DNA of 43,044 bases. It comes from Bacteroidota bacterium (GTDB lineage Bacteria; Bacteroidota; Rhodothermia; Rhodothermales; UBA10348). The stretch is from positions 1-43,044 of the forward strand of contig JAJCYP010000059.1 in the NCBI GenBank assembly GCA_029262855.1, read 5' to 3'. Under the pieces are notes generated by a model. It searched no databases. It had not been told where the DNA came from and saw nothing but the letters and a program-made list of their open reading frames with translations. This document shows positions 28-39,339 of this stretch, in pieces (position 1 is the first letter of the stretch; every line of letters begins with the position of its first letter). The position numbers and the translations under genes were made by a program.

Positions 28-1668
28 CTAGCGCCGCGTCACCTCCCAGGAGGCCAGAAGGCGCGTATCCGGGTCGACAACGACTTCCGAGACCTCAGCA
101 TCGTACTCCTTCCTCACGGACGCCGCCTCGCTCCCGCCCACCGGTATCGTCACGCGCTCGGTTGAGCCGTCCACGAATCGAATCTCAAGGTCCACCTCGA
201 TGTCGAACGCGTAGGTCTCCTGGGTCTGTCGGACGGAGACTCCAAGCCCTCCGTCCCGCTGACTCCAGGTCAAAGCCAGATGTGGAATCCCCCCCTGGAA
301 CAGCCACTGATCGAAGTGCTGATCCAGATCGAGTCCCGAGGCCTCCTCCATACTCTGCTTGAAGTCCGCCGTCTGGGCGTTTCCGTTGAAATGCTCGGCG
401 TAGTAGGCGCGGACGCCCTTGGTGTAGGTATCGATCCCAAGCCTCTCGCGAAGCATGTGCAGGGTCCAGGCACCCTTCTGGTACATCATGGCCCCGGAGA
501 CGTCGTTCAGGTTTTCGATGTAGGGGCGAACCAGTTGGAAGTCGTAGTTGTCATCGTTTCCGTAGAACGCGATGACCCGGTCCCGCGAATCCTTCAGTCC
601 CGCGATGAAGTCATCCTGTCCATAGGCGTACTGCCGGAACAGCAGGGTGTAGTAGGTGGCGAAGCCCTCGCTGAGCCAGACATCATTCCAGTGGTGTTCG
701 GTCACGGCGTTTCCGAACCATTGATGAGCGATCTCATGGATGATCACATGTTGCCAGCGACGGCTCCGGGTCCCGGTGACAGACGCCTCCGAATACGCCG
801 GGGTGGATGCCGCCTCCATGCCGCCTCCGGTGGCTGGCGAGACCACGTTGGCCAGGCGCTCATAGGCGTAGGGACCGATCAGATCCGAGTAGAACGCCAG
901 AACCTGCTTTGAGGGAATGGCGAAGTCGTGGAAGCCCTGCTCCCTGTCCTGCCGGTACACCCAGGTCTCGATGGCCTTGCCGTCAAACGTGTCCACCTGC
1001 TCCATCGCGAATTCCGCCACGCCCAGGAAGTAGAGCCAGGTGGCGACAGGCACAGAGTTCTTCCAGTGGGTCCGACGCATGTTGTCGCCCAGATCGGTCT
1101 CTTCGACCAGGACGCCGTTGGAAACCACCTGGTAGTGGGAGGGGGCGGTCACCACGAATTCGTTGGCCGATTTGTCATACGGATGGTCCACGGTGGGCAC
1201 CCAGTTGCGCACGCGAGATGACCAGTTGTCGGAGAAGAAGGTTCGGTCCCCGTACTTGTTGTCTCCGATTCGAAGGCCGGCGGCCGGGGTGCCCGAGTAC
1301 TCTACCGTCACCTGAATGCGTTCGCCCGCCGCAACAAGCCGGCCCAGATCGATGAGTACCGCGTCGTTGTCGTGCTGCCAGCTGAGTCGGGCGCCACCCA
1401 TCAACACCAACTTGACGGTCATGCCCTTTTCTTCCAGGGCTTCCGAGCGCTCAATGAGGTCAAGGCGGAGCGTTCGGCCTGCTTCCAGGAATCGGGCATC
1501 CACGGTGGTCCGGCCCTCGATGGAATCCAACTCATCCGACAGCGTGAGTTCGAAGACGTAGTTCTGGACGTCGATCCCGGGGTTCTTGGGATAGCTGTCT
1601 GAGTAGGTGTGCTGCGCCTGGGCGGTGGGGACGAGCAGGAGGGCGAGAAGGAGCAGGAGAGAGCGCAT
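28..1668 (-). CDS. M1 family zinc metallopeptidase (aminopeptidase N-like)
   Basis: Secreted or periplasmic aminopeptidase of the M1 (gluzincin) family, 546 residues from the chosen start. The ATG at 1668 begins a classic signal peptide (MRSLLLLLALLLVPTAQAQ); a longer frame upstream would place a non-signal-like 19-residue leader before it. The zinc site is explicit: HEIAH at about residues 311-315, followed by the third ligand in WLSEGFATY about 18 residues later. The substrate N-terminus-binding motif is GGGMEA (family consensus GxMEN). The N-terminal part is the beta-sandwich typical of M1 enzymes. It is shorter than the roughly 870-residue E. coli PepN and lacks the large C-terminal helical domain, as in many Bacteroidota M1 enzymes. 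A terminator just upstream separates it from the respiratory operon, so it is probably transcribed alone. Family assignment is secure; the substrate is not known. Confidence 0.93.
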   Translation of the reverse strand: MRSLLLLLALLLVPTAQAQHTYSDSYPKNPGIDVQNYVFELTLSDELDSIEGRTTVDARFLEAGRTLRLDLIERSEALEEKGMTVKLVLMGGARLSWQHDNDAVLIDLGRLVAAGERIQVTVEYSGTPAAGLRIGDNKYGDRTFFSDNWSSRVRNWVPTVDHPYDKSANEFVVTAPSHYQVVSNGVLVEETDLGDNMRRTHWKNSVPVATWLYFLGVAEFAMEQVDTFDGKAIETWVYRQDREQGFHDFAIPSKQVLAFYSDLIGPYAYERLANVVSPATGGGMEAASTPAYSEASVTGTRSRRWQHVIIHEIAHQWFGNAVTEHHWNDVWLSEGFATYYTLLFRQYAYGQDDFIAGLKDSRDRVIAFYGNDDNYDFQLVRPYIENLNDVSGAMMYQKGAWTLHMLRERLGIDTYTKGVRAYYAEHFNGNAQTADFKQSMEEASGLDLDQHFDQWLFQGGIPHLALTWSQRDGGLGVSVRQTQETYAFDIEVDLEIRFVDGSTERVTIPVGGSEAASVRKEYDAEVSEVVVDPDTRLLASWEVTRR

Positions 1669-1706
1669 GGTCGGTAGTTTGGGTGAGCCGGGATAAATCT
1701 CGGACC

Positions 1707-1741
1707 AAAGAAAAAAGGTCGGCAACCCTGAGGCTACCGAC
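1707..1741 (-). terminator. Rho-independent terminator of the respiratory operon
   Basis: Read on the minus strand, GTCGGTAGCC and GGTTGCCGAC form a 10-bp stem (two G-U pairs) closed by a TCAG loop and followed directly by CTTTTTTC. It lies 72 bases after the stop codon at 1813 and before the start of the M1 peptidase gene at 1668, so it should end the operon running from about 8.4 kb. It is the only hairpin with a proper U-tract that I found in the window. Confidence 0.85.
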
Positions 1742-1812
1742 TCTTCTAGAATAAGCAGGAGAACCTACCAGAACCTGTGGCCGACCGTCTCGGCGAGAAA
1801 GGTCGGGGCCGT

Positions 1813-2250
1813 TCACCCCTGCACTTCATCCGCCAGCACACACAGCATCTGGTAGTAGTCGTCCACGCTCATTCCCAGCGCGGCCGCCCCGAACGCCTCG
1901 GCGTCCTCCTCTGCCACGAAGGCTCCGTAGTTGACCACGACCAGCTGGTACAGAACGACCGCCGGTACCAGGTTGGGCCGGTCCTCGAGTCCCGGATGAA
2001 CGAAGATCGTGAAGCCGTCCTCGGGGCTGTCGCCGCTGGGGCGGGGCCAGGCGACTTCACCGGACTGAAGCGGGGCGGCGTCGAAAACGATTTGGCACGG
2101 GTAGCGGACAAATGCACGGTCTTCGAGAAGCTCAAGCAACCGGTCCCAGCCGAGGAGTGGCCCGTAGGCTGCGCGTACTGCCTGTCCCTTGGCCGCCGCG
2201 TGCTCCCGCATTGACTCTCGCGCGTCCTGCTCGGTCAGTTGACGGGCCAT
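1813..2250 (-). CDS. Small protein of unknown function, last gene of electron-conduit operon
   Basis: A 145-residue protein with no signal peptide and no membrane segment, probably cytoplasmic. I do not recognise a family. It is acidic and mostly helical in appearance, starts MARQLTEQDARE, and contains two cysteines (in RYPCQIVF and YQMLCVLAD) but no CXXC or heme motif. Its ATG overlaps the stop of the NrfD-type gene by one base (TGATG), so it is probably translationally coupled to it. The terminator follows 72 bases after its stop, which makes it a true operon member. From context it may be an assembly or accessory factor for the membrane complex, comparable in position to system-specific chaperones of other NrfD-type complexes, but nothing in the sequence proves that. 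Confidence 0.8.
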   Translation of the reverse strand: MARQLTEQDARESMREHAAAKGQAVRAAYGPLLGWDRLLELLEDRAFVRYPCQIVFDAAPLQSGEVAWPRPSGDSPEDGFTIFVHPGLEDRPNLVPAVVLYQLVVVNYGAFVAEEDAEAFGAAALGMSVDDYYQMLCVLADEVQG

Positions 2251-3497
2251 CAGGCCTGGGCGAGAGCGGTGCCTTCGACAGGCAGGGCAGGGTAGATCTT
2301 GTCCGAGAGGCGCCCTTGAATAACCGCAAGCGCAACGCGGACCAGCATGGAATACAGCATAACGCCGAAAGCCCAGATCCCGACGCCCACCAGGATTTCG
2401 TTGATACTGGGGGTGTACACCAGCATCTCTCCGAGAGGCGTAGGCAGGAATCCGGGCACGACCAGTCCGAGTCCTTTCTCAACCCACAGCCCGGTAATCG
2501 ACAGCGCACAAGCTATGGTGAGCCAGGTCAAGTTCTTCGAAATGGGAAGGACGAAGATGATCAGCGCCACGAAGTCAAAGAGGAGCGCAGTCCAGATCCG
2601 CGGGACGAGCTCCGAGAAGCCTTCGAGCCCGAAGTACAGATAGGTGGCAGAGTTGGAGTGCAGGCTCGACGAGTAGAATTCGGCGAACAGCTCGTTCATC
2701 AGAAGGAACAGGTTGACGACGATGGCAACCTGGATGATGCTGCGGAGCATCAGGAGGGCATCGTCGCCGAATACGAGGTTGGCCACCCTGCGAATCACGA
2801 GGAGGGTGATGACGATGAGTGCAGGTCCCGCTGTGAACGCCGAGGCGATGAACCGGGGACCGAGAATAGCCGTATTCCAGAAGGGTCGTCCGGCCAGTCC
2901 CATGTAGAGGAACGCGGTGACCGTGTGGATAGAGATCGCCCACACAATGGACACCATCACGACCGGGATGTAAAAGGCTGGACGCGGCCTGCGTCCGCGG
3001 TAGCGCGCGTACACGATATACGCACCCAAGTACAGGTTGATGACCAGGTATCCCAACAGGACGATGACGTCCCAGGCCAGAATGGAGGTCGGGAAGTTGA
3101 CCCGGCCCCAGAACGGGATCATGTGCCAGAACCGGTCGGGTCGCCCGAGATCCACAAGTACGAACGCGATACACATCAGCAGGGCCGCCACGGCCATCGC
3201 CTCCCCGAAGACGACCAGGTCTCGCAGTGCCTTGTTCCTGTAGACGTAGACCGGAATCACCACCAGGACCGCGGCCGCCGCGATTCCCACCAGGTAAGTG
3301 AAGTTGGCGATATAAAAGCCCCAGGAGATCTGGTCGCTCAGGCCGGTCGTTTCCAGACCGTGGACCAGTTGCCGCGCATAGGCATTCAGACCGACCAGGG
3401 TGATGGCAGCCAAGAGCGCCAGCCATGCCTTGTAGCGGACGCTGCCCGAAAAGGCCGTCGCCGTGCACCTGCCAAGAAACGTGAGGAAGTGCCGCAT
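2250..3497 (-). CDS. NrfD/PsrC-family quinol-interacting membrane subunit (DsrP-like)
   Basis: Integral membrane protein of 415 residues with about nine to ten hydrophobic segments across its whole length, matching NrfD/PsrC/DsrP-type proteins that exchange electrons between the quinone pool and a periplasmic ferredoxin. Family-like features include the early ISWGFYIANFTYLVGI stretch, the loop LVDLGRPDRFWHM, which resembles the LGRP motif in this family, and SIHTVTAFLYMG. The ATG at 3497 overlaps the ferredoxin stop (TGATG); an in-frame GTG one codon earlier is also possible. The gene directly upstream encodes the matching four-cluster ferredoxin, the standard pairing for this family. In the conduit model it oxidises menaquinol and passes electrons to the ferredoxin and cytochromes. 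Family call is strong; the direction of electron flow is inferred. Confidence 0.9.
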   Translation of the reverse strand: MRHFLTFLGRCTATAFSGSVRYKAWLALLAAITLVGLNAYARQLVHGLETTGLSDQISWGFYIANFTYLVGIAAAAVLVVIPVYVYRNKALRDLVVFGEAMAVAALLMCIAFVLVDLGRPDRFWHMIPFWGRVNFPTSILAWDVIVLLGYLVINLYLGAYIVYARYRGRRPRPAFYIPVVMVSIVWAISIHTVTAFLYMGLAGRPFWNTAILGPRFIASAFTAGPALIVITLLVIRRVANLVFGDDALLMLRSIIQVAIVVNLFLLMNELFAEFYSSSLHSNSATYLYFGLEGFSELVPRIWTALLFDFVALIIFVLPISKNLTWLTIACALSITGLWVEKGLGLVVPGFLPTPLGEMLVYTPSINEILVGVGIWAFGVMLYSMLVRVALAVIQGRLSDKIYPALPVEGTALAQA

Positions 3498-4396
3498 CAC
3501 ACGTCGAAGTAGTAGAAAAAACGGGGACGGGTGCCGTGCTCTTCCTTAAGCACGAAGACCCGCTTGTCACGAAGGATCTGCGAAACCTCGCTGTTCGGGT
3601 CGAGGATGTTTCCGAACTTTCGGGCACCCGTAGGACACGCCTCAAGGCAGGCCGGATACCGGCCGGCGCGGGTCCGCTGAATGCAGGAGTGGCATTTCTC
3701 GACCACACCCCGAGGCCGGGGTCGGTTGCCGAGATAGGCCATGTCGGGATTGATATCCTCGGCGGACAGGCTCGGCTTGGAGAAGTTGAACCGGCGGGCC
3801 CAATATGGGCAAGCCGCCTCACAGTACCGGCAGCCGATGCACCAGTCGTAGTCGATCACCGTGATGCCGTCTGCGTCCTGCCAGGTGGCCTCCACCGGGC
3901 ACACTTTTACGCATGGCGGCTGCCGACACTGCTGGCACTGAACCGGCATGTAGTAGAAGCCCTCCCGAGGCACGGTTTCCGGATCGTAGTCGTGACTCGA
4001 CTGCTCAACGTCGAACGTCCCGTTGGGCATCTCCAGGACGCGGATATACTGTATTTCCGGATTACGGGACTGGTTGTTTTCGGCCACACACGCGTGGACA
4101 CATTTCCGGCAGCCGATGCAGCGGGTCAGGTTGAGCGCGGTCACGAACTCCACGCCGGCCATCGGTTTCAGGTCCCGCACGTGCGGCCTGACGCCGTACT
4201 CGTGCTCGACCTCCTGTGTAATCTTCGCGAGCATCACCTCCATCTCCTCGGGCTCAATTTCCTTGTAGTGCTTGCGCAGAAAATCGTCGAGTGAGATGTC
4301 GTCGTCGTAGTCCCTCAGCGGCGCCAGCGACGCTGCGATGGCCGCCATCCCCGTGGCAGCGTAGGCCGACTTTCGGAGGAAGCTCCGCCGGTTCAT
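3497..4396 (-). CDS. TAT-exported ferredoxin with four [4Fe-4S] sites (NrfC/DsrO-like)
   Basis: A 299-residue iron-sulfur protein. The ATG at 4396 gives MNRRSFLRKSAYAATG, a good twin-arginine signal (RRSFLRK) before a hydrophobic run; the longer open frame upstream is not convincing. Cysteine clusters in order are CIGCRKCVHAC, CQQCRQPPCVKVCP, CIGCRYCEAACP and CHSCIQ...CLEACP, the arrangement of electron-transfer subunits such as NrfC, DsrO, PsrB and HybA. It therefore acts outside the cytoplasmic membrane, docked on the adjacent NrfD-type protein. It begins 22 bases after the tetraheme cytochrome gene and its stop overlaps the next start. No molybdopterin catalytic subunit accompanies it, so its electrons probably go to (or come from) the cytochromes encoded upstream. 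Confidence 0.92.
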   Translation of the reverse strand: MNRRSFLRKSAYAATGMAAIAASLAPLRDYDDDISLDDFLRKHYKEIEPEEMEVMLAKITQEVEHEYGVRPHVRDLKPMAGVEFVTALNLTRCIGCRKCVHACVAENNQSRNPEIQYIRVLEMPNGTFDVEQSSHDYDPETVPREGFYYMPVQCQQCRQPPCVKVCPVEATWQDADGITVIDYDWCIGCRYCEAACPYWARRFNFSKPSLSAEDINPDMAYLGNRPRPRGVVEKCHSCIQRTRAGRYPACLEACPTGARKFGNILDPNSEVSQILRDKRVFVLKEEHGTRPRFFYYFDV

Positions 4397-4418
4397 GGTG
4401 CCGGAACTGGACCGGGAC

Positions 4419-5060
4419 TCAGGCATCTTCGTGCACCTCCGTGGAATCCCCTGCCTCGCCACGCTGTGGGCGGAACGGCTGCGGGGCGCGCCACGGCTTG
4501 AGCGACGGAAAGGCGGGCGAATGCGCGTTGTGGCAGGCCGTGCAGTCTTCCTTTCGTTGTGGGCCGAGGTCGGCGTTCCAGTAGCCGGAAACCCGACCGT
4601 GCAATCCGCTCTCCCAGTCCCGGTAGGTGGTTCCGTGGCACCCACCGCAGAGCACATTACCCTCGGTGATCGGAATCAGGGTGCCGTCCACCTTGCGGAG
4701 CATCTCCAGATTACTCTGCTCGTGGCATTGGAAGCAGTTCTCGTTTCGGTGGCTCGCTCCGTGTCTGAGTTCGAAATCGAAAGAGTGCTCCTCCATGAGG
4801 ATCCGCCCGTCTGCGTCCAATTGCAGTTCGGGCGGGTCGTCCGCTTCGTGACAGGAGTAGCACGCCAGCATTGACGTGTCTCCATCCAGTCGGACGAGTT
4901 CGGCTGCGGACGTGCGGACGGTCGAGATACCGGCGGCGGACGAATCTGCCGGAGCAACCTCGCTTATCTCATAGGGAAACGCCCACCAATCCATTGCCAG
5001 CGTTACCGCCAGGACCAGAAAACCCACCACGAAGATTACGCCTGCGCGACCGGAGTTCAC
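4419..5060 (-). CDS. Membrane-anchored tetraheme cytochrome c
   Basis: A 213-residue protein with one N-terminal membrane anchor (about residues 7-23) and four CXXCH heme sites: CYSCH (from residue 67), CFQCH, CGGCH and CTACH. Extra His residues (for example HSFDFELRH, HRNENC, SGLHG, HNAH) could supply bis-His ligation. It starts with GTG at 5060; no convincing upstream ATG exists. The layout resembles NrfB/NapC-type or cytochrome c3-type small shuttles, but I cannot place it in one subfamily. It sits between the monoheme cytochrome and ferredoxin genes of a tight operon (22-23-base gaps), consistent with a periplasmic relay between the ferredoxin/NrfD module and the outer-membrane cytochrome. 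The charged C-terminal tail after the last heme has no obvious function. Confidence 0.9.
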   Translation of the reverse strand: MNSGRAGVIFVVGFLVLAVTLAMDWWAFPYEISEVAPADSSAAGISTVRTSAAELVRLDGDTSMLACYSCHEADDPPELQLDADGRILMEEHSFDFELRHGASHRNENCFQCHEQSNLEMLRKVDGTLIPITEGNVLCGGCHGTTYRDWESGLHGRVSGYWNADLGPQRKEDCTACHNAHSPAFPSLKPWRAPQPFRPQRGEAGDSTEVHEDA

Positions 5061-5083
5061 GGTAGTTCAGATGGAGAGGGTGA

Positions 5084-5494
5084 TCACGATCCGGTCTCCG
5101 CGAAGGACCGGACGTGGGAAATCAGTCCGTCGATCTGGGCGGCGGTGAGCTTCTCTGCAAACGGCTTCTTGTTCTTGAGCTGCTTTCCGTCCTTCTTGGA
5201 CGTGCGGATTACTTCGGCGGCCTCCTCGTCCGTCCACCCGGCCTGGTACTCCGCATCAGTGAAGTCCTTTGTCCCTGCGCGCTTTCCGGCGCGCGTCTGG
5301 CCCTTTCCGTCGACCCCGTGGCAGGAGGAACATTCCCGCTTGAATAGTCCGACTATCGCCGTGTCGGGAGGCGCGAGTCCGAGCTCAGCTCGGGATTCGG
5401 TCGGAACCACGGGGTCGGCGGGAAGCAGGAGGAACAGAAGGAACACAAGGAGCGGGAGAGCTCCTGCCAGCAGGATCGGACGGATGGTGCGCAT
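5084..5494 (-). CDS. Monoheme class I-type cytochrome c lacking the usual Met ligand
   Basis: A 136-residue protein with an N-terminal hydrophobic anchor or signal (residues 4-24) and one heme site, CSSCH at 55-59, followed by GVDGKGQT as in class I cytochromes. The ATG at 5494 is chosen because it starts the hydrophobic signal; an in-frame codon 57 bases earlier lacks one. The C-terminal motif where this family normally reads KMPPF..KLS reads NKKPFAEKLTAAQ here, and there is no Met anywhere after the heme motif. The sixth ligand must therefore be Lys, another residue or absent. It lies 22 bases after the beta-barrel gene stop and 23 before the tetraheme gene, so it belongs to the conduit operon as a periplasmic carrier. 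Confidence 0.88.
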   Translation of the reverse strand: MRTIRPILLAGALPLLVFLLFLLLPADPVVPTESRAELGLAPPDTAIVGLFKRECSSCHGVDGKGQTRAGKRAGTKDFTDAEYQAGWTDEEAAEVIRTSKKDGKQLKNKKPFAEKLTAAQIDGLISHVRSFAETGS

Positions 5495-5516
5495 GGATGG
5501 AATGTCTTGGATATGA

Positions 5517-7616
5517 TTAGAAGCGGTATCCCAAGCTGAGGAATACGGCATTCAGGTCATAGTCCTGAGTCCCGCCAAACGTTCCGTCCCGGTTCAGGAA
5601 GTGATAGAATCGTACCGAAGTCGTCATGCCTGGTCGGACCTCGTAGGAGCCTCCGAGGGTGACGCCCTGTTCTTCAGCACTGATCGCGTACGGGTGCCCA
5701 ACATCCGAGTTGTCGATGAAGTTGTCGGCTTCGAAGTAGAAGAGCCTGGCCTCCACACTGGCCTTCTCGCTCACCGCCGCGCCCGCCGAGACACTGGCGT
5801 TCAGGTAGTCACTCCTTGCCTCCAGAACAATGTCTGCGGCATCGCCCGTCAGTTCATTGATGGGGGTCACGAACCGGTTGCGCGATGAGGAAACCTGTGC
5901 CCGGATGAATGACTGGGCGTTGGGCTTGAACGCCACGGTTCCAGTCAGAGCCCGGCTCGTGATTTCCGCGCTCTCGAACGTGTCCAGTCCATCGGCGGTA
6001 CCTTCATTTATGGTTCGGCGCACGTCGAGCCGCGCGCTCAGCGTAACCCGAGCATCCGGTCGGAGCCGAATCTGGATGTTCGCATCGTCGGTGGTGTAAT
6101 CCTGACTCTGCAGGAAGCCCGGATAGGTGAGTGGTCCATCGGCGTTCTCGAAGTGGTCATATGTGACCGAGCGCAGCTTGCGGTACGCCTGACCGTTGAC
6201 CCGCACCATGGTGGAGGGATGCCAGTTGAAGCCGCCCAGAACCCGATAGGATGATCGCGTGTCATCCGTCTCGCGGCTGAATTCAACGGAGGAGGTTTCG
6301 GTCTCAACCTCCTGCTCGAAGATGCTGCCGCTGCGGTCGATGTACTCGCCGCGGGTGTAGAGCGTCAGGTTATCGATACCTGTAAACCGGACCTCAAGGC
6401 TTCCGGTCACGTCCGTCAGGTCACGGTTTCCGCTGTTCCTGAGCGGTGTCAGCGTCACAGAGCCGTCCGACTGCACGTTGGTGTCTGTCACCTTGACTTC
6501 CCCGTCGCGGTTCATGGTCTCGTACCGTATGGCCGGCACCACGGTGAAATCGCCCTTGCGCATGCGAAGCTCCGCTCCTACACTCGTCATGGTTCGGTCG
6601 GCCACGCCGTCAATGTCCAAGAATCCATGGTCCCGCCGCTGGCCGTTCGGGAACCCGGCGTCGAACGCCGCCCCGAAGGTCGCCCCGTAGATGCGGTTGC
6701 CGCCGTACTCGTTTTCCGCGGTCTGGTGGATGAACCGCGTGGCCAAGGAGAGTCCCTCCCCGAGTTGGGTAACCGTCCCGGCATGGACACTCAGTGCGTC
6801 CGACTTGATGGTCTCCCGGTCGGTCAGGAACCGTTCGCTTGACTCGCCGGGTCGACGCCAGATGTTGAGCGAGTTGTCGGCCTCGCCCGACTCAAGGCTG
6901 GCCCCGATCGAGACGTCCGTCTTTCCGAACGTGTGTTCCACATCGGCAGTGAGGGTATTTCGAGAATCGTCGCTCACCCAGAACGAGGGACTGATGTTGC
7001 GCGTGCCAAGATCGTCCAAATCCCGGCTGTCCCCCCAGGACAGGGACGGCTTGGTGCCGTCCCTGAACATCCGCGCGAAGCGGACGGTCAGTTTCGGCAG
7101 ATCCGGCTTGCGTAGGCCGGCCTCGATAAACGTGGTGCCGCGATCGATGGCCAGTTCCTGGTCCGCCGGCGTGAACTGGCGGTCCAGGGGCACGAAGTAG
7201 CCACCGGCACCGTCATAGCGGACCTTGAAATTTTCCAGGCCGACGCGCGCATAGCCCACGTCGGGGACATCGAGCGCGACCTTCACCCGGTAGTCGTCAT
7301 TTCCCGGAATGGCCCGTCCATCGACCAGGAGAATGCCTCGTTCGCCAACAAATCGCTCCAGGTGCAGTTCTTCGATGCCGCCCCAGAGCGCATCCGGGAC
7401 ACGGTGCCGCTGCATGTATTGGGCCGCCGAACCATCCACCGATGGAACGCCGAGCGAGAACTGAATGAAGTTACTTGTCTGCCCTGTGGGGGCCGGCTTC
7501 AACCCCTTGGAGAATTGGGCAGGCCCCTGCGCGAGGGTGGGACCAGCCACGATTGCCATCAACAGGGCGAGTGCCAGACTGCGTCGGATAGCAGTCCGAT
7601 TGTCCAGATTGTTCAT
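5517..7616 (-). CDS. Large outer-membrane beta-barrel of porin-cytochrome type
   Basis: A 699-residue protein with a signal peptide ending near residue 29 (GPTLAQ) and then a long series of alternating amphipathic strands with turns rich in D, G, N and R. It ends in LSLGYRF, an aromatic C-terminus typical of outer-membrane barrels. Start at 7616 is supported by GGAGGT four bases upstream. Length and position next to a multiheme lipoprotein match the MtrB/PioB/DmsF-type sheath of porin-cytochrome conduits. I see no cysteines, so the N-terminal CXXC described for Shewanella MtrB is absent and the exact family is uncertain. Its start lies 13 bases after the multiheme gene stop, arguing for co-translation. 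A plain porin is the main alternative, but the context of six redox genes makes an electron-conduit sheath more likely. Confidence 0.82.
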   Translation of the reverse strand: MNNLDNRTAIRRSLALALLMAIVAGPTLAQGPAQFSKGLKPAPTGQTSNFIQFSLGVPSVDGSAAQYMQRHRVPDALWGGIEELHLERFVGERGILLVDGRAIPGNDDYRVKVALDVPDVGYARVGLENFKVRYDGAGGYFVPLDRQFTPADQELAIDRGTTFIEAGLRKPDLPKLTVRFARMFRDGTKPSLSWGDSRDLDDLGTRNISPSFWVSDDSRNTLTADVEHTFGKTDVSIGASLESGEADNSLNIWRRPGESSERFLTDRETIKSDALSVHAGTVTQLGEGLSLATRFIHQTAENEYGGNRIYGATFGAAFDAGFPNGQRRDHGFLDIDGVADRTMTSVGAELRMRKGDFTVVPAIRYETMNRDGEVKVTDTNVQSDGSVTLTPLRNSGNRDLTDVTGSLEVRFTGIDNLTLYTRGEYIDRSGSIFEQEVETETSSVEFSRETDDTRSSYRVLGGFNWHPSTMVRVNGQAYRKLRSVTYDHFENADGPLTYPGFLQSQDYTTDDANIQIRLRPDARVTLSARLDVRRTINEGTADGLDTFESAEITSRALTGTVAFKPNAQSFIRAQVSSSRNRFVTPINELTGDAADIVLEARSDYLNASVSAGAAVSEKASVEARLFYFEADNFIDNSDVGHPYAISAEEQGVTLGGSYEVRPGMTTSVRFYHFLNRDGTFGGTQDYDLNAVFLSLGYRF

Positions 7617-7629
7617 TTCGACCTCCGGG

Positions 7630-8415
7630 TCAGTAGCGCAGACGTTCGCTCACGTTGGAGCCATGAATCGCTTCATGGCATCCGGCAGACCAGCATGTGC
7701 CACGGGGCAGGAAGCTGATATGGTTTCGATCCCCAATCAGGATCTGATCCACGCCAGTCTGTGCCTGTGCATGGCATTGCAGACACAGGTCTGCATTGCG
7801 AGCCTTGAGCATCTTGGGATTAACGGAGCCGTGAGGCGAGTGGCAGGTAGCACACCCTTCCCGCAAGGCTTCGTGCTCGAAGACGAACGGCCCCTTCTGT
7901 GCGCCGTGGCACTGGAAGCAGGTGTCGTTCTGGGTCAACGAACCCAGGCCGGCAGAAACGACATCGCCGCTATGGGGATCGTGACAGTTGGAGCAACTGA
8001 CCTGCCCTTCGATCACCGGATGCCGGTGCTGAAGGGAGAACTCGCTCTCCTTGTCAATATGGCAGTTGAAACACGTCTCAGGTGAGGCGCCTGGGTTGAC
8101 GATGGTCTCGACCGCTCCTCCGGATTCCACGTGGAGGCTTCCGCCACCGTGACAGGACTCGCATCCGATCTCGACGGCGTTTTCGCCTGAACCTTCGATC
8201 CACGCGTGGGTCGCGCTTTCGAAGGAACGGTTCTTCTCTTCGTGACAATCGGCACAGGAGGCCGAGCCTACATACGAGGCGCCGGCGATCTGTGGGGGAG
8301 AGACCAGTGTGCGTTCGACCGTACCGCAGGACATGAGGCCCCAGGTACCGAACATCAACCCAAAAGCCACCACCCAGATCGAACTATTCCCGAAAGACGG
8401 TAATCGAGGCGTCAT
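7630..8415 (-). CDS. Multiheme cytochrome c lipoprotein (up to eight hemes, DmsE/MtrA-like)
   Basis: A 261-residue protein. The ATG at 8415 is preceded by GGAGGT with four-base spacing; the open frame further upstream is not signal-like. The signal ends in a lipobox, L27-M-S-C30, so it is likely a lipoprotein. Heme sites in order are CADCH (54-58), CESCH, CFNCH, CSNCH, CFQCH, CATCH and CLQCH, then CWSAGCH near the C-terminus, a CX4CH spacing. Spacing and motifs (CHDPH, CHSPH, CHGAQ) resemble DmsE/MtrA-type conduits and cytochrome c3-like repeats, though these usually carry ten hemes. First gene of the operon, directly ahead of the barrel gene. Expected to sit inside the barrel or on an outer-membrane face and pass electrons across it. 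The palindrome at 8531-8545 is a candidate control site. Confidence 0.9.
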   Translation of the reverse strand: MTPRLPSFGNSSIWVVAFGLMFGTWGLMSCGTVERTLVSPPQIAGASYVGSASCADCHEEKNRSFESATHAWIEGSGENAVEIGCESCHGGGSLHVESGGAVETIVNPGASPETCFNCHIDKESEFSLQHRHPVIEGQVSCSNCHDPHSGDVVSAGLGSLTQNDTCFQCHGAQKGPFVFEHEALREGCATCHSPHGSVNPKMLKARNADLCLQCHAQAQTGVDQILIGDRNHISFLPRGTCWSAGCHEAIHGSNVSERLRY

Positions 8416-8530
8416 GTGTACCTCCACTGGGTATATGGCACCCGCTTGCCACCGATGAGGTGGACCACTTCCTGCTTGGATGGGGTACGGGCTCGGACCC
8501 CAGGGTAAACGTGGCATTTTGGCTTCCGTG

Positions 8531-8545
8531 TAGGGGAATCCCCTA
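8531..8545. promoter_or_regulatory. Perfect 15-bp palindrome upstream of electron-conduit operon
   Basis: TAGGGGA-A-TCCCCTA is a perfect inverted repeat of 7-base arms around one central base. It is centred about 123 bases upstream of the first ATG of the conduit operon (8415) and in the gap before the serine hydrolase stop at 8695. Size and symmetry fit a homodimeric activator or repressor. No regulator gene sits next to it, so the protein is unknown. I found no second copy by eye. Confidence 0.55.
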
Positions 8546-8600
8546 ACGTCCTGTCGGCGAATAGCGCGTCCCCTTGCAGGCAGGTGAGGGGTAGCACTGA

Positions 8601-8690
8601 GACCCTACCAAGTCATCCAAGGAGCAGGGCGATGCGATCTGGGAGATCGTGATCCGGCACCTGACGGCGTTCGTCGAGGAACTGCGTCGA
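8601..8690 (+). pseudogene. Possible creatininase-family C-terminal remnant
   Basis: One plus-strand frame from 8601 reads DPTKSSKEQGDAIWEIV and then IRHLTAFVEELRR. This resembles the C-terminal helix of creatininase (creatinine amidohydrolase) family proteins, which typically end with a GDP..A..EKG start followed by an amphipathic helix. There is a stop codon (TGA at 8598-8600) directly before it and no start or body of such a gene, so if real it is a relic about 30 codons long, running up to the end of the convergent serine hydrolase gene. Recognition is from memory of the family pattern and could be chance. Confidence 0.35.
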
Positions 8691-8694
8691 CCGG

Positions 8695-10686
8695 CTACTG
8701 CTTCGCGAACCGCACGTCACGGGTCCGCGCGTTGGAGGCGTAGAACGCGAGGATGCGGCCATTGCGGTCACGCTCAAAGTTGATCTCTGAAAACATGCCT
8801 CCAGAGAAGGTGTCCCGCTCGCCGGAATTGAGTTTGAACGCCGCGATCCGGCGCTGCGACATCATCAGGTCTCCGTCGACCAACTCGATTGTGTAGAAGG
8901 TCTCGATTTCCTCCGAGAAAAAGCGGCCCACAAACTCTTCGAGGTCTTCAGATTCTGGCTTCCAGACCCCCCCTCCGTCATCCACTCGCGTGGCTGGTTG
9001 GTCTCCGTTCTGATGCAGAGTCATCCGCATGACCGACCCATCGGCGTCCCGATGGAACGTCATGGAGGCCTCGACCACGGTCAATTTGAATGTGGAATCC
9101 GAGGTTGGGAAGATCTCAAACTGGGGCTGTCCGGTGGCCTGAAGGAAGAACTTGTCTTCCTCACGCGTGAGTGTCAGTATGAACGCTGGGACGGCGTCCA
9201 GAGCAAATCGCCCGGCGTAATCGTCAAAGGTCCCTTGATCAAAATTCTCGGGGTTGAAGGCCTCTTCGTCGACGGGCTCCTTCTCGACTTCCGGCTCCAT
9301 GTCGTCTCCGAAGAAGGCCTCCGCGATCTTCCATGCGATGCCACCATCAAACCCGGCATGATTGCTCTGCGTGGTCAGGCCCGCACCTATTTCAGGGTAG
9401 CGAACCAGTTGGGACCTATGCGCCACATCGGCTCCACCGTGCTGGATACGTCGCAGCCCACGATGTTCGTCCAGGAATAGGCCGAGTCCATAGCCGGTCT
9501 CGTTGCCATCATTCAGGACGAAGCTCGTTTGCATTTCGTCAACGATGGCCAGAGTCCCCACGACCGGGTTGCGGAGGTTTTCTGCCCATTTCTGCAAGTC
9601 GCCCACGGTGGAATAGATACCGCCCGCTCCCATGGCCCCGCCCAGATCGGCAACCTCGAGAAAACGCCCACCGGGGCCGGGGGTGTAGCCGATGGAACGG
9701 TCCGGCACGATGTACTCGCGGCTTTCGCGCACCATGGTTCGAGTCATCCCAAGGGGCCCGAACACGTTTTCCTCCATGAACTCTCCGAAGGACATCCCGG
9801 AGATCTCGGCGACCAGATCGGCCGCCAGCGCGAAGGCCGTGTTGTTGTAGTTGAACTCACCACCCGGCTCATTCTGAAGTGCCGGCTGGCGTTGGACCAT
9901 CGCCGTGATTTCGGAGCGATCGATCCAGTCACTGTGCCCCAGTTGCCGTCCGTCCATAAGGGCAAGATTGAGGAATTCCCGATACCCCGTCGTGTGCGTG
10001 AGCAGATTCCGAACGGTCACTGGGGTGCCGAAGTCTTTCAGATCCGGCAGGTGATCGCGAACGTCGTCATCCAGTGAGAGAGAATCGGCCTCAACCAGGA
10101 GCATCACGGCAAACGCGGTGAACTGCTTTGACGTGGAGCCAATATTGGTCGGGGTATCGACGGTATTCTCGATGCCGTAGGTCAGGTTTGCCGTGCCATA
10201 TGCCTTGCTGAAGAGCGTGCGTCCGTCCCGCCAAACCTGGACGGCGACCCCGGGCGTGCCTTCGCCGCTGTAGGCAGAGACCAACTGATCTACTCGTCTG
10301 CCAGGATCGGTCGCCATCCCTTCGTGCATCACGAGTTCGATGGTGTAGTCACCCTCCTCGTCCTCGAAGGGGGTGACGACGACACGGAATGCGCCAGCAG
10401 TCTCGGTCTCAAACCGAAAGATCTCGTGACCGCGCGCGGGTCCGTCAACTGTCAAGAGGGACGTGCCATCCGGGCCGAAGACCTCCACCACAACGTCCAC
10501 CGTCAGTTGGTTCACGCGGCCGTAGACGAAGCGGCCAACGCGTGTCTCCAGCACGTAGCCATCGGCGTCGCCAGCAAGAAGAGATCCGGACAGGACATGG
10601 CCTATTCGTAGCGGAGTGTCCTGGGCTCGGGCTTTCGGCGCGACACCAAGGGCGAGAACGAGTGCGAGGAGGGAGGAGATTCGCAT
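8695..10686 (-). CDS. Serine beta-lactamase-like hydrolase with N-terminal PPC-type domain
   Basis: A 663-residue secreted protein. The start at 10686 begins the signal peptide MRISSLLALVLALGVAPKARAQ; a longer frame upstream is not signal-like. Residues about 25-125 look like a bacterial pre-peptidase C-terminal (PPC) beta-sandwich (GDADGYVLE..., FRVVVTPFEDEEGDYTIEL). The following domain is a class C beta-lactamase/PBP4*/esterase fold: SxxK in GSTSKQF, YxN in FNYNNTAF and the HGG triad element in IQHGGADV. The last roughly 180 residues form the beta-rich extra domain often found after this fold in Bacteroidota. Likely a periplasmic or exported esterase, D-aminopeptidase or peptidoglycan-modifying enzyme; the motifs do not decide which. 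Divergent from the FtsX-type permease gene. Confidence 0.9.
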   Translation of the reverse strand: MRISSLLALVLALGVAPKARAQDTPLRIGHVLSGSLLAGDADGYVLETRVGRFVYGRVNQLTVDVVVEVFGPDGTSLLTVDGPARGHEIFRFETETAGAFRVVVTPFEDEEGDYTIELVMHEGMATDPGRRVDQLVSAYSGEGTPGVAVQVWRDGRTLFSKAYGTANLTYGIENTVDTPTNIGSTSKQFTAFAVMLLVEADSLSLDDDVRDHLPDLKDFGTPVTVRNLLTHTTGYREFLNLALMDGRQLGHSDWIDRSEITAMVQRQPALQNEPGGEFNYNNTAFALAADLVAEISGMSFGEFMEENVFGPLGMTRTMVRESREYIVPDRSIGYTPGPGGRFLEVADLGGAMGAGGIYSTVGDLQKWAENLRNPVVGTLAIVDEMQTSFVLNDGNETGYGLGLFLDEHRGLRRIQHGGADVAHRSQLVRYPEIGAGLTTQSNHAGFDGGIAWKIAEAFFGDDMEPEVEKEPVDEEAFNPENFDQGTFDDYAGRFALDAVPAFILTLTREEDKFFLQATGQPQFEIFPTSDSTFKLTVVEASMTFHRDADGSVMRMTLHQNGDQPATRVDDGGGVWKPESEDLEEFVGRFFSEEIETFYTIELVDGDLMMSQRRIAAFKLNSGERDTFSGGMFSEINFERDRNGRILAFYASNARTRDVRFAKQ

Positions 10687-28254: not shown

Positions 28255-28270
28255 CCAACGCTCACGTTGG
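28255..28270 (+). promoter_or_regulatory. Leader hairpin just upstream of the di-heme peroxidase start
   Basis: CCAACG-CTCA-CGTTGG is a perfect 6-bp stem with a four-base loop, ending 14 bases before the ATG at 28285. In mRNA it would sit where a ribosome binds, so it may affect translation; as DNA it may be a protein site. Confidence 0.35.
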
Positions 28271-28284
28271 AATCGTCCCGCGTC

Positions 28285-31200
28285 ATGAAGCCTTCTTACA
28301 ACTCTCGTTTCGGCGTACTTGCTCTCGCCATTGTAGCCCTTATCACGGGCTGGAGCCTCTCGGTAGGTAGTCACAGTATCGACACGCTTCAGGGAAAGGA
28401 AGTCCCTCTTCCGGAGAACCTGGACGACTTCGTGAAAAACCGGGACGCGGCGATCCAACTCGGGAAAGCGCTCTTCTGGGACATGCAGCTCGGGGCCGAT
28501 GGGGTCCAAACCTGCGCCAGTTGCCACTTCGCCGGTGGAGCCGACAATCGCATCAAAAACCAGATGCGGCCCGCCGGAAAGGATCAGGCCGAGATCATCT
28601 TCTCGTTCGGCGGCCCGAACTACACATTCCGGCCCGGTGACTTTCCGTTCCCGAAGCCTGCCAACGAGGTGTCCGGCTCGCAGGGTACCTACCACACACG
28701 GTTCCTGGGCACGACGCCGGGTGCCGGCCAGGACGATACGTCTCTGGAGCCCGATCCCGTGTTCAACGTGGGGGGCATCAACACCAGGCAGGTAGCGCTC
28801 CGCAACGCGCCGACCGTGGTGAACGCCATCTTCATGTCCCGTGGCCTGTGGGACGGGCGCGCCAACAACCAGTTCAACGGCCGAAATCCGTTCGGTCCAA
28901 GGGACACTGACGCCCGCATCTGGGTGAATAACGGGTATTCCATCTGGGACGAGGCCGTCGCATTTGACAACGCGGCCATGGCGTCGGTCGCGACCGGTCC
29001 GCCGTTGGATAATGTCGAGGTCTCCAGCGTGGGACGAACGTGGCCCTTCGTTGGGAAACGCCTGCTGCCAGTCCGGGCACTAGCGCAGCAGGAAGTGGCC
29101 GCCGACGACTCTCATCTGGCGAGTATTCGCGCCCCGTACGGCGGACTGAACCTGGACTATCAAGCCCTCATTGAGCGCGCCTTTTATCCGAAATACATCG
29201 GCAACCAGATCGTCCGGACCGAGGTGTACGAGGGGACGACCTACGACTTCACGCAGACCGAGGAAAACTTCTCTCTCTATGCGGGTCTCTCAATCATGAT
29301 GTACCTGTCGACGCAGGTTTCGGACCAGTCCGCCTACGACGACTACGCCAACGGGAATACCTATGCGCTGAACGCACAGGAGCTGGAGGGGTTGGACCTC
29401 TTCTTGAACAAGGCCAAATGCGTCGAGTGTCACTCCGGGCCTGACTTTACGAATGCTGGATTCGATCTAAAGGGTGCGTTTGGCGACGGCAGTCTGGTCA
29501 ACACATTTCGACGTCGCGATGGCAAGGTCGCTCTCCACGATCGAGGTTTCTTCAACGTGGGCGTACGCGCCAATGAAGAGGACCATGGTCTGGGTCGAGA
29601 CGACGATTTCGGAAATGACCTCTCTTTTGCCGAGCAGTTTGCGGGTGGTCCCCAACTCGATCCGTTCTCAACAAATCCGGCCACCTTTGACGTGCCGGTG
29701 GGCTACGGCACCCCTGAGCTTGCCGTTGAGGGCGCTATCAAGACTCCGGGTCTCCGCAACATCGGACTGACGGCTCCCTACATGCGCAACGGTGGTTTTG
29801 CCACCCTCCGCCAGGTGGTCGACTTCTTTGATCGCGGAGGGGACTTCGCGGCGGAGAGTGCGGACCTCCTGCACCCGGCGGTTCAGAAGCTGTACCTCTC
29901 GGACTCCGAGAAGGACGCCCTGGTGGCCTTCATGCTGGCCCTGACCGATCAGCGAGTCCGCAACCACCAGGCCCCGTTTGATCACCCGCAGATCCTGCTG
30001 CCCAATGGGCACGAGGGGGATCATACCCAGGTGTGGGATGACGGGACCGGCAAGGCGGCGACCGACTTCATTGAAATTCCGGCTGTGGGTCGCTACGGTT
30101 ACTCAAGCCTTCCCTCCGAGCTGATCCCGTTCGAAGAGCAGCTTGGTCTCGACCATTTCGACGGCGCATCCGCTCCAACCCCGCCGGGCCTCGCCCTGTG
30201 CTACGTCATCGCAGACAACGACGCCGACGGGCAGGCCAGCCACGATGTGCTGACCTCACTGCCCACGGGAGCCTATGGCGCTGACATCCGCATTGGAAGG
30301 ACCGGCACGCAGCACATCGAGGCAGCCGCCTTCAATCCATGGACGCGGGAACTCCTTGCGGCCGACGCGCAAACGCTCGGCAAGGTGGATCTGAATTCAG
30401 GCTTGTTCACCCCGATCGGTGAATTCGGCTGGGGCGAAGGCTTCGATCTCTATGGCAATGCCCGGAGCCGGGAATTCCTGGATGTCGATGGGCTTGCCTT
30501 TGATCCGGTGCGAAGTGCGTACCGTCCCCTGCTTTACGGAACCGTGAGGAAGACCGGAGAACCTGATCTCCTCATCCAAATCGATCCCGCGACCGGCGCA
30601 GTGGTCAAGAACGCTTTCGGGGGACAGGACTACGTCACGATCCGCGGCGTGAACTACCTGACCGACATCGACGACATCGCCATCAGTCCGTGGGACGGGA
30701 AGCTGTACGCAGTGAACAACCGGGACGGCCAGAGCAGCCGACTGGTGACGCTTGACAGGCACACCGGAGAGGCCACCCTGGTCCTGGATCTGCCACTCGA
30801 GAACGTCGAGGGTCTCGCCTTCTTTGGCGACGGTACGATGTACGGAACGGCGGGCGAGGGCGATGAGGCCATCGTCGTGATCGATCTCTACTCCAACACC
30901 GCGACCGTGCAGGCCAATCTCGGAGCCGGCGGCCGTGACTACGAGTCCATCGACTGCCTGACCAACGCCTACAACCGTGTGGCAGTGACTGTCTTCGGCG
31001 ATGCCAACCACGACGGCTCGATGCAAGTGACGGAAGGTGGAGAGGGAGGCATCGCTGTCGAACTCTTCCGGGATGTCAACCGGAACGGGACGCTGGATCA
31101 GTCAGACCTCTTCCTTGAGGAACTGGTGACAGACACCGACGGCAATGTAGCCTTCTCCCCAGCAGCCAATGGCGATTTCCTCCTGCGGGCTGACTCGAAG

Positions 31201-31566
31201 GTGCAGGCCGTCACGTTCGATGGATTCGGCGAGACGGCCGGTGATCGCTACTTCGGAATGAGTGGCATCTCGACGAACAGCCAGTCCTTAGCGGACGTGC
31301 CTTCCGAGTTCGCGCTGCTGGCCAACTATCCCAATCCCTTCAACCCGCAGACGACCACCGCATTCCAGCTGCCGAAGGCATCCCAGGTTCGGCTTGCGGT
31401 CTACAACCTGCTCGGTCGAGAGGTGGCCGTACTCGTAGATCAGACCATGGAGGCCGGGACACACCAGGTCACTTTCCAGGCAGGCAACCTCCCGAGTGGA
31501 ACCTACCTCCTGCGAATGGCAGCGGACGGCGCGGAGTTCAGTCGGGCAATCACGCTACTGAAATAG
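28285..31566 (+). CDS. T9SS-exported di-heme cytochrome c peroxidase (MauG/CCP family) with C-terminal repeats
   Basis: A 1093-residue secreted protein. The ATG at 28285 begins the signal segment MKPSYNSRFGVLALAIVALI; a TTG six codons earlier is less likely. The first roughly 570 residues are a bacterial di-heme cytochrome c peroxidase: CASCH at 77-81 and CVECH at 379-383, with ALFWDMQLGADGVQTC and GLRNIGLTAPYMRNGGF characteristic of the family. Next comes a propeller-like region (IDPATGAVVKNAFGG, YAVNNRDGQSSRLVTLD) of about 300 residues. A SdrD-B/dockerin-like segment follows (VFGDANHDGSMQVTEGG, DVNRNGTLDQSDLFLEE). The last roughly 80 residues are a T9SS type A sorting domain (LLANYPNPFNPQTTTAFQLP, VYNLLGREVAVLVDQ, SGTYLLRM). 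Expected at the cell surface, reducing peroxide or oxidising a substrate. Confidence 0.93.
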   Translation: MKPSYNSRFGVLALAIVALITGWSLSVGSHSIDTLQGKEVPLPENLDDFVKNRDAAIQLGKALFWDMQLGADGVQTCASCHFAGGADNRIKNQMRPAGKDQAEIIFSFGGPNYTFRPGDFPFPKPANEVSGSQGTYHTRFLGTTPGAGQDDTSLEPDPVFNVGGINTRQVALRNAPTVVNAIFMSRGLWDGRANNQFNGRNPFGPRDTDARIWVNNGYSIWDEAVAFDNAAMASVATGPPLDNVEVSSVGRTWPFVGKRLLPVRALAQQEVAADDSHLASIRAPYGGLNLDYQALIERAFYPKYIGNQIVRTEVYEGTTYDFTQTEENFSLYAGLSIMMYLSTQVSDQSAYDDYANGNTYALNAQELEGLDLFLNKAKCVECHSGPDFTNAGFDLKGAFGDGSLVNTFRRRDGKVALHDRGFFNVGVRANEEDHGLGRDDDFGNDLSFAEQFAGGPQLDPFSTNPATFDVPVGYGTPELAVEGAIKTPGLRNIGLTAPYMRNGGFATLRQVVDFFDRGGDFAAESADLLHPAVQKLYLSDSEKDALVAFMLALTDQRVRNHQAPFDHPQILLPNGHEGDHTQVWDDGTGKAATDFIEIPAVGRYGYSSLPSELIPFEEQLGLDHFDGASAPTPPGLALCYVIADNDADGQASHDVLTSLPTGAYGADIRIGRTGTQHIEAAAFNPWTRELLAADAQTLGKVDLNSGLFTPIGEFGWGEGFDLYGNARSREFLDVDGLAFDPVRSAYRPLLYGTVRKTGEPDLLIQIDPATGAVVKNAFGGQDYVTIRGVNYLTDIDDIAISPWDGKLYAVNNRDGQSSRLVTLDRHTGEATLVLDLPLENVEGLAFFGDGTMYGTAGEGDEAIVVIDLYSNTATVQANLGAGGRDYESIDCLTNAYNRVAVTVFGDANHDGSMQVTEGGEGGIAVELFRDVNRNGTLDQSDLFLEELVTDTDGNVAFSPAANGDFLLRADSKVQAVTFDGFGETAGDRYFGMSGISTNSQSLADVPSEFALLANYPNPFNPQTTTAFQLPKASQVRLAVYNLLGREVAVLVDQTMEAGTHQVTFQAGNLPSGTYLLRMAADGAEFSRAITLLK

Positions 31567-33511: not shown

Positions 33512-34299
33512 AAGTCCCTCCGCTCAAACGCGCGGCGCGTCAAATGGAACGGCACCACGACCCACGCCAACAGCGCAATCGTTACGAGTCCGTAGCCCAG
33601 GGGCGACCCAAAGAAGCGAGAGAAAACGGCGCCGGTGTATCCCATCAATGCCTGGGCCTCCAGGGAGAGTAGCAGAATCACCCGGACAAGGTCCACTGGA
33701 TTGAGGAGCATGATGCCCAAGAGAGGCCGTTCCAGTGGGAATCGGGAAAGGGTCTCAACGGCCAGCAGCACGATGCCGTCGTAGGCGATGGCCATGGCTA
33801 CCCACACCCCCAAGGCCACGCCAATGCAGCGAACCCGATCCTTGATGTGAGTCGCAATCAAGAGGGCCAGAGCGGTGAATACAAACGTCAGCACCACGGC
33901 CAGCCCGATAAGGAGAGCAAGTTCGCCCGCAACTCCGCCCGACAGCTTGCCATGAATAGCGAATGGCAGAGCCAACCCCGCTGCCAGCCCGAGGGATTGA
34001 GGGATTGCCAACCCAAGATAGATACCGCTGAAGAGGGAGTTCCGGCGTATGGGCTGGGTGAGCAGAAGCAGGATGAAATCCCGGATGCTGTACAGATGCA
34101 TGGTGCCAAATACCAATGCCCCCAGCGGGACCAACAGCAGCACCACATTGATGAGACTGGCCAGCGCGCGGTCGCCGGTTCCGGCGGCCAGCACCAGTCC
34201 TTCCGCAATGATCAGGTAGATGAGCGTGTGCTGCATGAGCCAGCGGCTCTTCAGCGCACCGCTGAGTTGGTAGCGCACCACGGCTCGTACGGTGTTCAT
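33508..34299 (-). CDS. nosY: ABC-2 type permease of the nos maturation transporter
   Basis: A 263-residue inner-membrane protein with six hydrophobic segments (for example INVVLLLVPLGALVFGTMHL, LALLIGLAVVLTFVFTALAL, GLVTIALLAWVVVPFHL). NosY is the membrane part of the NosFY exporter that, with NosD, supports assembly of the copper-sulfide CuZ site of N2O reductase, probably by supplying a sulfur species. Its start overlaps the nosF stop by four bases (ATGA), and it is the last gene of the nos operon. The stop overlaps that of fic in CTAG, so the two genes converge without any spacer or terminator. Confidence 0.92.
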   Translation of the reverse strand: MNTVRAVVRYQLSGALKSRWLMQHTLIYLIIAEGLVLAAGTGDRALASLINVVLLLVPLGALVFGTMHLYSIRDFILLLLTQPIRRNSLFSGIYLGLAIPQSLGLAAGLALPFAIHGKLSGGVAGELALLIGLAVVLTFVFTALALLIATHIKDRVRCIGVALGVWVAMAIAYDGIVLLAVETLSRFPLERPLLGIMLLNPVDLVRVILLLSLEAQALMGYTGAVFSRFFGSPLGYGLVTIALLAWVVVPFHLTRRAFERRDF

Positions 34300-37272: not shown

Positions 37273-37286
37273 GGCGACGTAGGTGA

Positions 37287-39248: not shown

Positions 39249-39284
39249 GTGACTTACTTCGGTTCGTGTAGGGGATGTTGTAGT

Positions 39285-39301
39285 GCCCGGCGAGTCCGGG
39301 C
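39285..39301 (-). promoter_or_regulatory. Hairpin in the gap between cytochrome c gene and nosZ
   Basis: GCCCGG-CGAGT-CCGGGC (plus strand) is a perfect 6-bp G/C stem with a five-base loop, 37 bases ahead of the nosZ ATG in the 91-base intergenic gap. With no U-tract after it, it may be an mRNA stabiliser or processing site that raises nosZ levels relative to the upstream genes. Confidence 0.4.
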
Positions 39302-39339
39302 TGGGGAATCGAATCCTGGCTGCCTTGGAGGCGGCGCAG

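Follow-up and report, generated by a model that had tools for sequence, protein, structure and literature searches.

A seven-gene operon of a Rhodothermales bacterium encoding a candidate quinone-linked electron conduit across the outer membrane

We analyzed a 43,044-nucleotide stretch of a Bacteroidota genome (order Rhodothermales; assembly GCA_029262855.1, contig JAJCYP010000059.1, positions 1 to 43,044), referred to here as the window, and focused on seven minus-strand genes at 8415-1813. An earlier note on this DNA had described them as a compact operon of a multiheme lipoprotein, an outer-membrane barrel, a monoheme and a tetraheme cytochrome, a four-cluster ferredoxin, an NrfD-type protein, and a protein of unassigned function, and had proposed that they exchange electrons between quinones and the outside of the cell. 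Our open reading frame (ORF) calls gave the same genes, order, strand, and spacing. All seven run in the same direction and are tightly packed, with distances from gene 1 to gene 7 of 13, 22, 23, 22, -4, and -1 bases, which is operon-like packing. The GC (guanine plus cytosine) content of the operon and its near flanks is 0.60-0.62 across five 2-kb segments. The heme motifs and lipobox, the cysteine sets of the ferredoxin, and the NrfD assignment likewise came out as the note had them, and none of the seven genes encodes a catalytic subunit or molybdoenzyme; NosZ lies elsewhere in the window. We found no sigma-70-like promoter in 1500-9000 and no FNR-like palindrome in the window. See Table 1 for the genes and their coordinates.

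Table 1. Genes of the operon, with positions in the window and the basis of each assignment
Feature	Position	Strand	Basis
Gene 1: lipid-anchored octaheme cytochrome, shortened MtrA/DmsE type	7630..8415	-	heme count, lipobox, homology
Gene 2: 699-residue predicted outer-membrane beta barrel, orphan; presumed sheath of gene 1	5517..7616	-	
Gene 3: monoheme cytochrome c, N-terminal hydrophobic stretch	5084..5494	-	PF00034 6e-8
Gene 4: tetraheme cytochrome, N-terminal membrane anchor, GTG start	4419..5060	-	CXXCH count, homologues
Gene 5: Tat-exported ferredoxin, four 4Fe-4S sets, DsrO-like	3497..4396	-	NF045797 177 bits
Gene 6: NrfD-superfamily quinone-site membrane protein, DsrP clade	2250..3500	-	NF045798 394 bits, tree
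Gene 7: 145-residue accessory protein, module-linked, without evident signal peptide	1813..2250	-	pLDDT 92 model

Gene 1 carries seven CXXCH motifs and one CX4CH motif, along with a lipobox at Cys30 (PROSITE-like pattern). It matches chain A of 6r2q at 1.9e-32; the molecule name given for 6r2q_A in the result table is that of another protein, and we take 6r2q to be the Shewanella baltica MtrCAB complex with MtrA as chain A. The DmsE-type decaheme model TIGR03508 matches gene 1 with 164 bits (3e-48), the cut-off being 192. We aligned gene 1 to six decaheme MtrA-type homologues, each directly followed by a large barrel-like gene. Hemes 3-4 of the ten-heme chain are absent from gene 1, and the C-terminal HGSN end of the family is retained. 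Judged by homology, gene 1 is a shortened MtrA/DmsE-type cytochrome, and it would be tethered by lipid to the outer membrane. A lipobox was found in none of the six decaheme homologues, with starts as set by the ORF caller. In MtrA, the C-terminal half makes the more extensive contacts with MtrB (PMC7198977). A gene 1 match at E <= 0.001 occurs in 23 of 60 relatives searched, the window's own genome included, and the best match outside that genome (6e-7) is to large multiheme proteins. In a sample of 395 genomes of the phylum, 54 have a DmsE-type match at 1e-10, which is above the cut-off in three. In these three genomes, none of them the window's own (loci L188, L189, and L190), a decaheme MtrA/DmsE type lies directly before a gene for a barrel-like protein of 783-841 residues. 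Two of these three proteins (L189 and L190) match no Pfam family, MtrB_PioB included.

Gene 2 has no match in Pfam or NCBIfam (to E 0.1) and none in PHROGs. Its amphipathic strand density is 30, against 18.8 ± 3.2 in shuffled sequences (z 3.5). The same measure gave z scores of 2.5-3.9 for the six barrels adjacent to MtrA types and of -0.9 to 0.0 for four non-barrel controls (a permease, a tricorn-like protein, NosZ, and NapA). Among controls resembling outer-membrane proteins (OMPs), two TonB types scored 2.6 and 1.5, a 402-residue OMP 1.8, and a 443-residue putative porin -0.6. The C-terminus, ...LSLGYRF, is of the OMP type, and a Sec-like signal can be seen by eye. Because of the strand density and this C-terminal end, we regard gene 2 as very probably an outer-membrane barrel. 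The barrel named in the earlier note is kept here as a prediction, agreeing with strand periodicity and C-terminus and matching no family. Relatives of gene 2 were sought with single-sequence searches, which diverged kin can escape. They were found in the window's own genome only, both among the 60 relatives and in the phylum sample (at most two candidates per genome among the matches listed). Plasmids yielded none, and in viral contigs two stretches matched a pattern, neither of them a relative.

Genes 3 and 4 have one and four CXXCH motifs, respectively. In gene 5, four 4Fe-4S cysteine sets and an RRSFL twin-arginine translocation (Tat) motif can be seen by eye; a regular-expression count gives three sets, as the second does not fit the expression. 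Gene 5 scores 177 bits against the DsrO model NF045797, under its cut-off of 200. Gene 6 is a Pfam NrfD protein (2e-36) and exceeds the DsrP equivalog cut-off (NF045798; 393.7 bits vs 350). We considered and rejected membership in a DsrMKJOP complex. Gene 6 passes the DsrP model and gene 5 is DsrO-like, yet the operon has no DsrM or DsrK, and DsrA was found in none of three genomes, the window's own included. Name-based annotation can mislead in such a case. The NetB (NF049875) and PdsA (NF049874) models match genes 1, 3, and 4 weakly, at E 0.03-0.08 and far under their cut-offs.

We scanned for gene 6 with one genome per species and confirmed 224 stretches; locus counts below refer to the best 80 of these 224. 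A gene 5 homologue is present in 78 of the 80 loci and a gene 4 homologue in 73. Genes 4-6 occur as a unit, and they are a known kind of quinol:cytochrome module. A monoheme cytochrome precedes the tetraheme-ferredoxin-NrfD unit in L092 and L100, both from Gammaproteobacteria with no molybdoenzyme detected nearby, and in L049. Given this recurrence, the four genes 3-6 may form a unit of older date.

Next, we placed gene 6 in a tree of 82 rows. The window and one other genome of the order, G030, group with 20 loci (support 99/85), of which 19 are from Planctomycetota (one titled Leptolyngbya) and one is from Acidobacteria. The window and G030 are joined to L049 at 99/76, a node that is not starred and at which, the tool warns, long branches meet. 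A NapA-type gene adjoins the inner-half module in 17 of these 20 loci. Two of the 17 labels were judged by the family model (L049, 1352 bits; L032, 873 bits, just below the cut-off of 904), and the other 15 by BLAST to the L032 gene at 71-76% identity, except for L046, whose label comes from a 43-bit fragment where the contig ends. The other three are L033 and L034, whose upstream sequence is short or missing, and L038, where the downstream gene encodes an 8-heme protein instead. Such a protein, of about 480-505 residues, directly follows gene 6 in L033 (1735-3222), L038 (11168-12613), and L049 (11220-12737). The L038 copy matched no NCBIfam model at 1e-20, and as a guess, these proteins are possibly octaheme nitrite or hydroxylamine enzymes. 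Counting hits above 100 bits, 41 of all 80 loci have a molybdoenzyme no more than 8 kb away, and so do 30 of the 49 loci that retain 5 kb or more of sequence on both sides. The refuting condition named in the earlier note, a catalytic subunit regularly found at this locus in relatives, therefore applies to the inner half; the barrel of the outer half has no known relatives.

The Nap-linked module of Phycisphaerae resembles the operon in its order 4-5-6, mostly followed by gene 7, and in identity (53-57% for gene 6 and 69-75% for gene 5). It differs in having a divergent NapA-type gene next door, where the window has the outer-membrane pair and the monoheme cytochrome instead. The window's own genome has five PF00384 hits, all on other contigs, and none is NapA (best identity to the L032 and L049 NapA, 26%); G030, a 77% complete genome, has no PF00384 match. 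Since its clade mates adjoin NapA and the own genome's five hits are not NapA, it appears that a module which once donated electrons to nitrate reductase was reconnected to an outer-membrane conduit. This points to the movement of quinol dehydrogenase modules from one partner to another, here a nitrate reductase and an outer-membrane wire.

The five PF00384 hits are of several kinds. Locus L139 (contig C31) encodes a NarG over its cut-off, with narHJI look-alikes by eye and a protein with two CXXCH motifs before it. Together, NarG and nosZ suggest that the host is a partial denitrifier. Locus L140 (contig C76) encodes an ArrA-like molybdoenzyme (1125 bits; cut-off 1600) with NrfD-like and ferredoxin-like neighbors, and look-alikes of arsR, arsA, and a mercuric-reductase-like flavoprotein were noted nearby by eye. 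A third hit is of the FdhF/YdeP type. The remaining two, on C50 and C47, were compared with NapA only.

Gene 7 was detected in 16 of the 80 gene-6 loci, all 16 within the 20-locus Nap-linked clade. It adjoins gene 6 in G030, and in L049 its homologue stands at the end of the nap cluster instead. The structure model of gene 7 has a predicted local distance difference test (pLDDT) score of 92. Foldseek returned nothing significant for the model (best E 0.83), and VIA-align placed IrrE/PprI and minigluzincin at Z 8.0-8.6, barely over the usual background of 7-8. No Pfam family scored above its threshold. The sequence has no HEXXH motif, so if the zincin fold is right, gene 7 would be a pseudo-enzyme. 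It is perhaps a zincin-like pseudo-enzyme on the evidence of this model, and it probably helps in the assembly or maturation of the inner half.

The seven-gene order, sought in relatives as the earlier note had proposed, was recovered from the window's own genome only. Gene 4 is matched at 1e-5 in two of 114 genomes of the order, the window's own and G030, where gene 6 is 83% identical to that of the window. The G030 contig begins within gene 4, so genes 1-3 cannot be judged beside its module; neither gene 1 nor gene 2 was detected in the rest of that genome, which is 77% complete. Furthermore, we used the M1 peptidase that flanks the operon as a marker of the site. It has a match in all eight relatives searched, with best identities of 48-75%. 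At its sites in G001, G002, G003, G007, and G011, no operon gene lies alongside, and the window's other flanking genes are unmatched there too. In G011, an unrelated-looking 8-heme protein lies 6 kb from the M1 site and matches gene 1 with 39 bits. Literature searches for such conduits in Rhodothermota or Rhodothermales gave no description of this operon among the papers listed, which is weak evidence given that subscription literature was mostly uncovered; "Rhodotherm" is mentioned zero times in each of PMC8805035, PMC4245776, and PMC11475568.

The operon resembles the Aeromonas mtrCAB-pdsA-netBCD cluster, where a porin-cytochrome conduit is likewise encoded together with a small periplasmic cytochrome and a quinol dehydrogenase (PMC8805035); gene 2 of the operon is a porin by prediction. 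NetBCD are a cytochrome, a ferredoxin, and an NrfD protein, and the Aeromonas cluster is not known to include a reductase gene. Unlike the Aeromonas cluster, the operon has no MtrC, an octaheme in place of a decaheme, and a monoheme in place of a diheme cytochrome, and its gene 6 matches DsrP. The earlier note had called porin-cytochrome and NrfD-ferredoxin pairs each known and had singled out their joining in one operon. This joining is not new, as it has precedents in the clustering of NetBCD and PdsA with mtrCAB (PMC8805035), in a porin-cytochrome conduit (PCC) beside an NrfD cluster in one metagenome-assembled genome (MAG) (PMC10732223), and in a Nitrospinota locus, L110. In L110, genes 4-5-6 are followed by a ten-heme MtrA type (235 bits, over cut-off) and an MtrB-type gene (PF11854, 346 bits); the locus also encodes a membrane cytochrome with 19 hemes. 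Like the operon, L110 thus joins a tetraheme-ferredoxin-NrfD module to MtrA- and MtrB-type genes; it differs in its decaheme MtrA, Pfam MtrB, and 19-heme cytochrome, and its NrfD protein belongs to a distant clade. Because of this distant placement of gene 6, the union of conduit and quinol module probably arose separately in L110 and in the window's lineage. A profile of the six MtrA-adjacent barrels, that of L110 included, found no barrel in any other locus of the set examined.

Other systems share parts of this arrangement. Gene 1 is a multiheme cytochrome homologous to MtrA/DmsE, as in MtrAB, PioAB, and MtoAB; unlike those, it has eight heme motifs rather than ten, and gene 2 has no match to PF11854 (MtrB_PioB). 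PioAB and MtoAB are two-part systems without a surface MtrC (PMC8805035). Clusters of pcc genes range from two to nine genes in size and frequently include cytoplasmic-membrane cytochromes, and one is present in Ignavibacterium album (PMC4245776). The Geobacter pcc (OmaB-OmbB-OmcB) has an 8-heme cytochrome and an adjacent barrel, as predicted here, a likeness of heme count and adjacency only. Unlike it, the operon has no 12-heme outer-membrane cytochrome, and gene 1 is homologous to MtrA/DmsE. For the inner half, CbcSTU and SirCD are quinol modules, CbcSTU comprising a cytochrome, a ferredoxin, and a membrane subunit with menaquinol:cytochrome activity (PMC11434368), and the likeness of genes 4-6 to cbcSTU (Cbc4) is one of gene composition only. 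A ferredoxin-NrfD module with a multiheme cytochrome is described in MBNT15 (PMC9386147), and the available text of a review of NrfD complexes names no porin (PMC8076601).

We read the operon as a trans-envelope, quinone-linked electron conduit in which a Nap-clade inner half is joined to a porin-cytochrome pair, and we put the probability of this at roughly 65%. The quinone-linked exchange across the outer membrane proposed in the earlier note thus survives as the best reading of the MtrA homology, the adjacent barrel, and the quinol module; the novelty argument of that note is only partly right. Gene 6, of the DsrP type, would exchange electrons with the quinone pool, and the gene 5 ferredoxin would pass them from gene 6 to the membrane-anchored tetraheme cytochrome of gene 4. 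The monoheme cytochrome of gene 3 may then shuttle them over the periplasm from gene 4 to gene 1. The lipid-anchored octaheme protein, sheathed by the barrel of gene 2, would take the electrons through the outer membrane, and gene 7 would assist the assembly of the inner half.

Several results weigh against this reading. No similarity of gene 2 to MtrB-type barrels was detected beyond controls. In hhalign, run against the six MtrA-adjacent barrels singly and in three alignments, the best E was 0.096, and eight control proteins reached 0.11; phmmer gave a best E of 0.012 in a six-sequence set without controls. An AlphaFold model of gene 2 alone, built with no homologues, had a pLDDT of 31 and was not used. 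Given the missing MtrB similarity and the failed structure prediction, the pairing of gene 2 with gene 1 is drawn from their adjacency. The missing similarity need not exclude a sheath role for gene 2, because two of the three large proteins beside over-cut-off MtrA/DmsE types also escape Pfam. Additionally, gene 1 falls below the DmsE-family cut-off (164 vs 192 bits). The operon encodes no surface decaheme cytochrome of the MtrC/OmcA kind, and the window's own genome has none over the TIGR03507 cut-off. The seven-gene order was not seen in any other genome searched, and the assembly is a draft of 146 contigs.

The lack of an MtrC-type protein over the family cut-off leaves room for two directions of electron flow, outward to a soluble external acceptor or inward as a Pio/Mto-like uptake. 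We slightly favor electrons leaving the cell for an external acceptor, soluble or solid, over uptake, because relatives of the inner module adjoin a reductase. In the case of uptake, Fe(II) or some other donor outside the cell would supply electrons to a two-part porin-cytochrome of the Pio/Mto kind, and gene 3 would carry them to an oxidase or N-oxide reductases, with genes 4-6 running in reverse into the quinone pool. Like PioAB/MtoAB (PMC8805035), the locus has no gene of the MtrC type, which is in keeping with this, and NarG and NosZ in the genome are possible acceptors. However, gene 1 has its match in the DmsE family, and NapA adjoins the closest relatives of genes 4-7, which implies quinol oxidation; we consider uptake unlikely. 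Also in our view improbable is a conduit that serves a catalytic subunit, at the surface or in the periplasm, whose gene lies at another place in the genome, in the way that DmsEF feeds DmsAB. It would suit the DmsE-family match of gene 1 and the molybdoenzymes (over 100 bits, within 8 kb) at 41 of 80 relatives' loci. However, the candidates in the own genome are a NarG with NarHJI-like neighbors, an ArrA-like protein with NrfD- and ferredoxin-like genes of its own, and an FdhF/YdeP type, along with the C50 and C47 hits that were compared with NapA only and that may include an orphan enzyme. Least credible, and very improbable, is a purely periplasmic quinol:cytochrome c oxidoreductase (for example, one serving NosZ, about 29 kb away) beside an unrelated octaheme-barrel pair, since the seven genes are tightly packed in one direction and gene 1 is homologous to MtrA, even though a nos cluster lies in the window and no molybdoenzyme was detected near 19 of the 49 loci flanked by 5 kb or more at both ends.

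Compared with its precedents, the conduit reading is novel as a variant (an octaheme lipoprotein, an orphan barrel, and a Nap-clade inner half) and not in principle. A bolder version, which we offer tentatively and hold to be rather less than an even bet, is that the operon represents a new conduit family, a lipid-tethered eight-heme mini-MtrA in an MtrB-unrelated barrel, made by exchanging NapA for an outer-membrane wire independently of the Aeromonas and Nitrospinota unions. If true, a donor module of nitrate respiration would have become part of a complete single-operon chain for extracellular electron transfer. The conduit reading itself would extend one-operon chains from quinone to surface to a lineage whose barrel was detected in one of 395 genomes of the phylum, and the eight-heme lipoprotein would be a natural test of the minimum length of an MtrA-type wire.

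Elsewhere in the window, a nos cluster spans 34296-39347. Its NosZ, at 37287-39347, is of the Sec-dependent type (929 bits vs a cut-off of 625), and look-alikes of nosL, nosD, nosF, and nosY, judged by eye only, lie downstream of it. Finally, a protein of 1099 residues is encoded at 28267-31566. It ends in a Por secretion tail, in keeping with a Bacteroidota-like host, and with its MauG (di-haem cytochrome c peroxidase) domain and a weak match to DUF4394 it is putatively a secreted peroxidase-like cytochrome.

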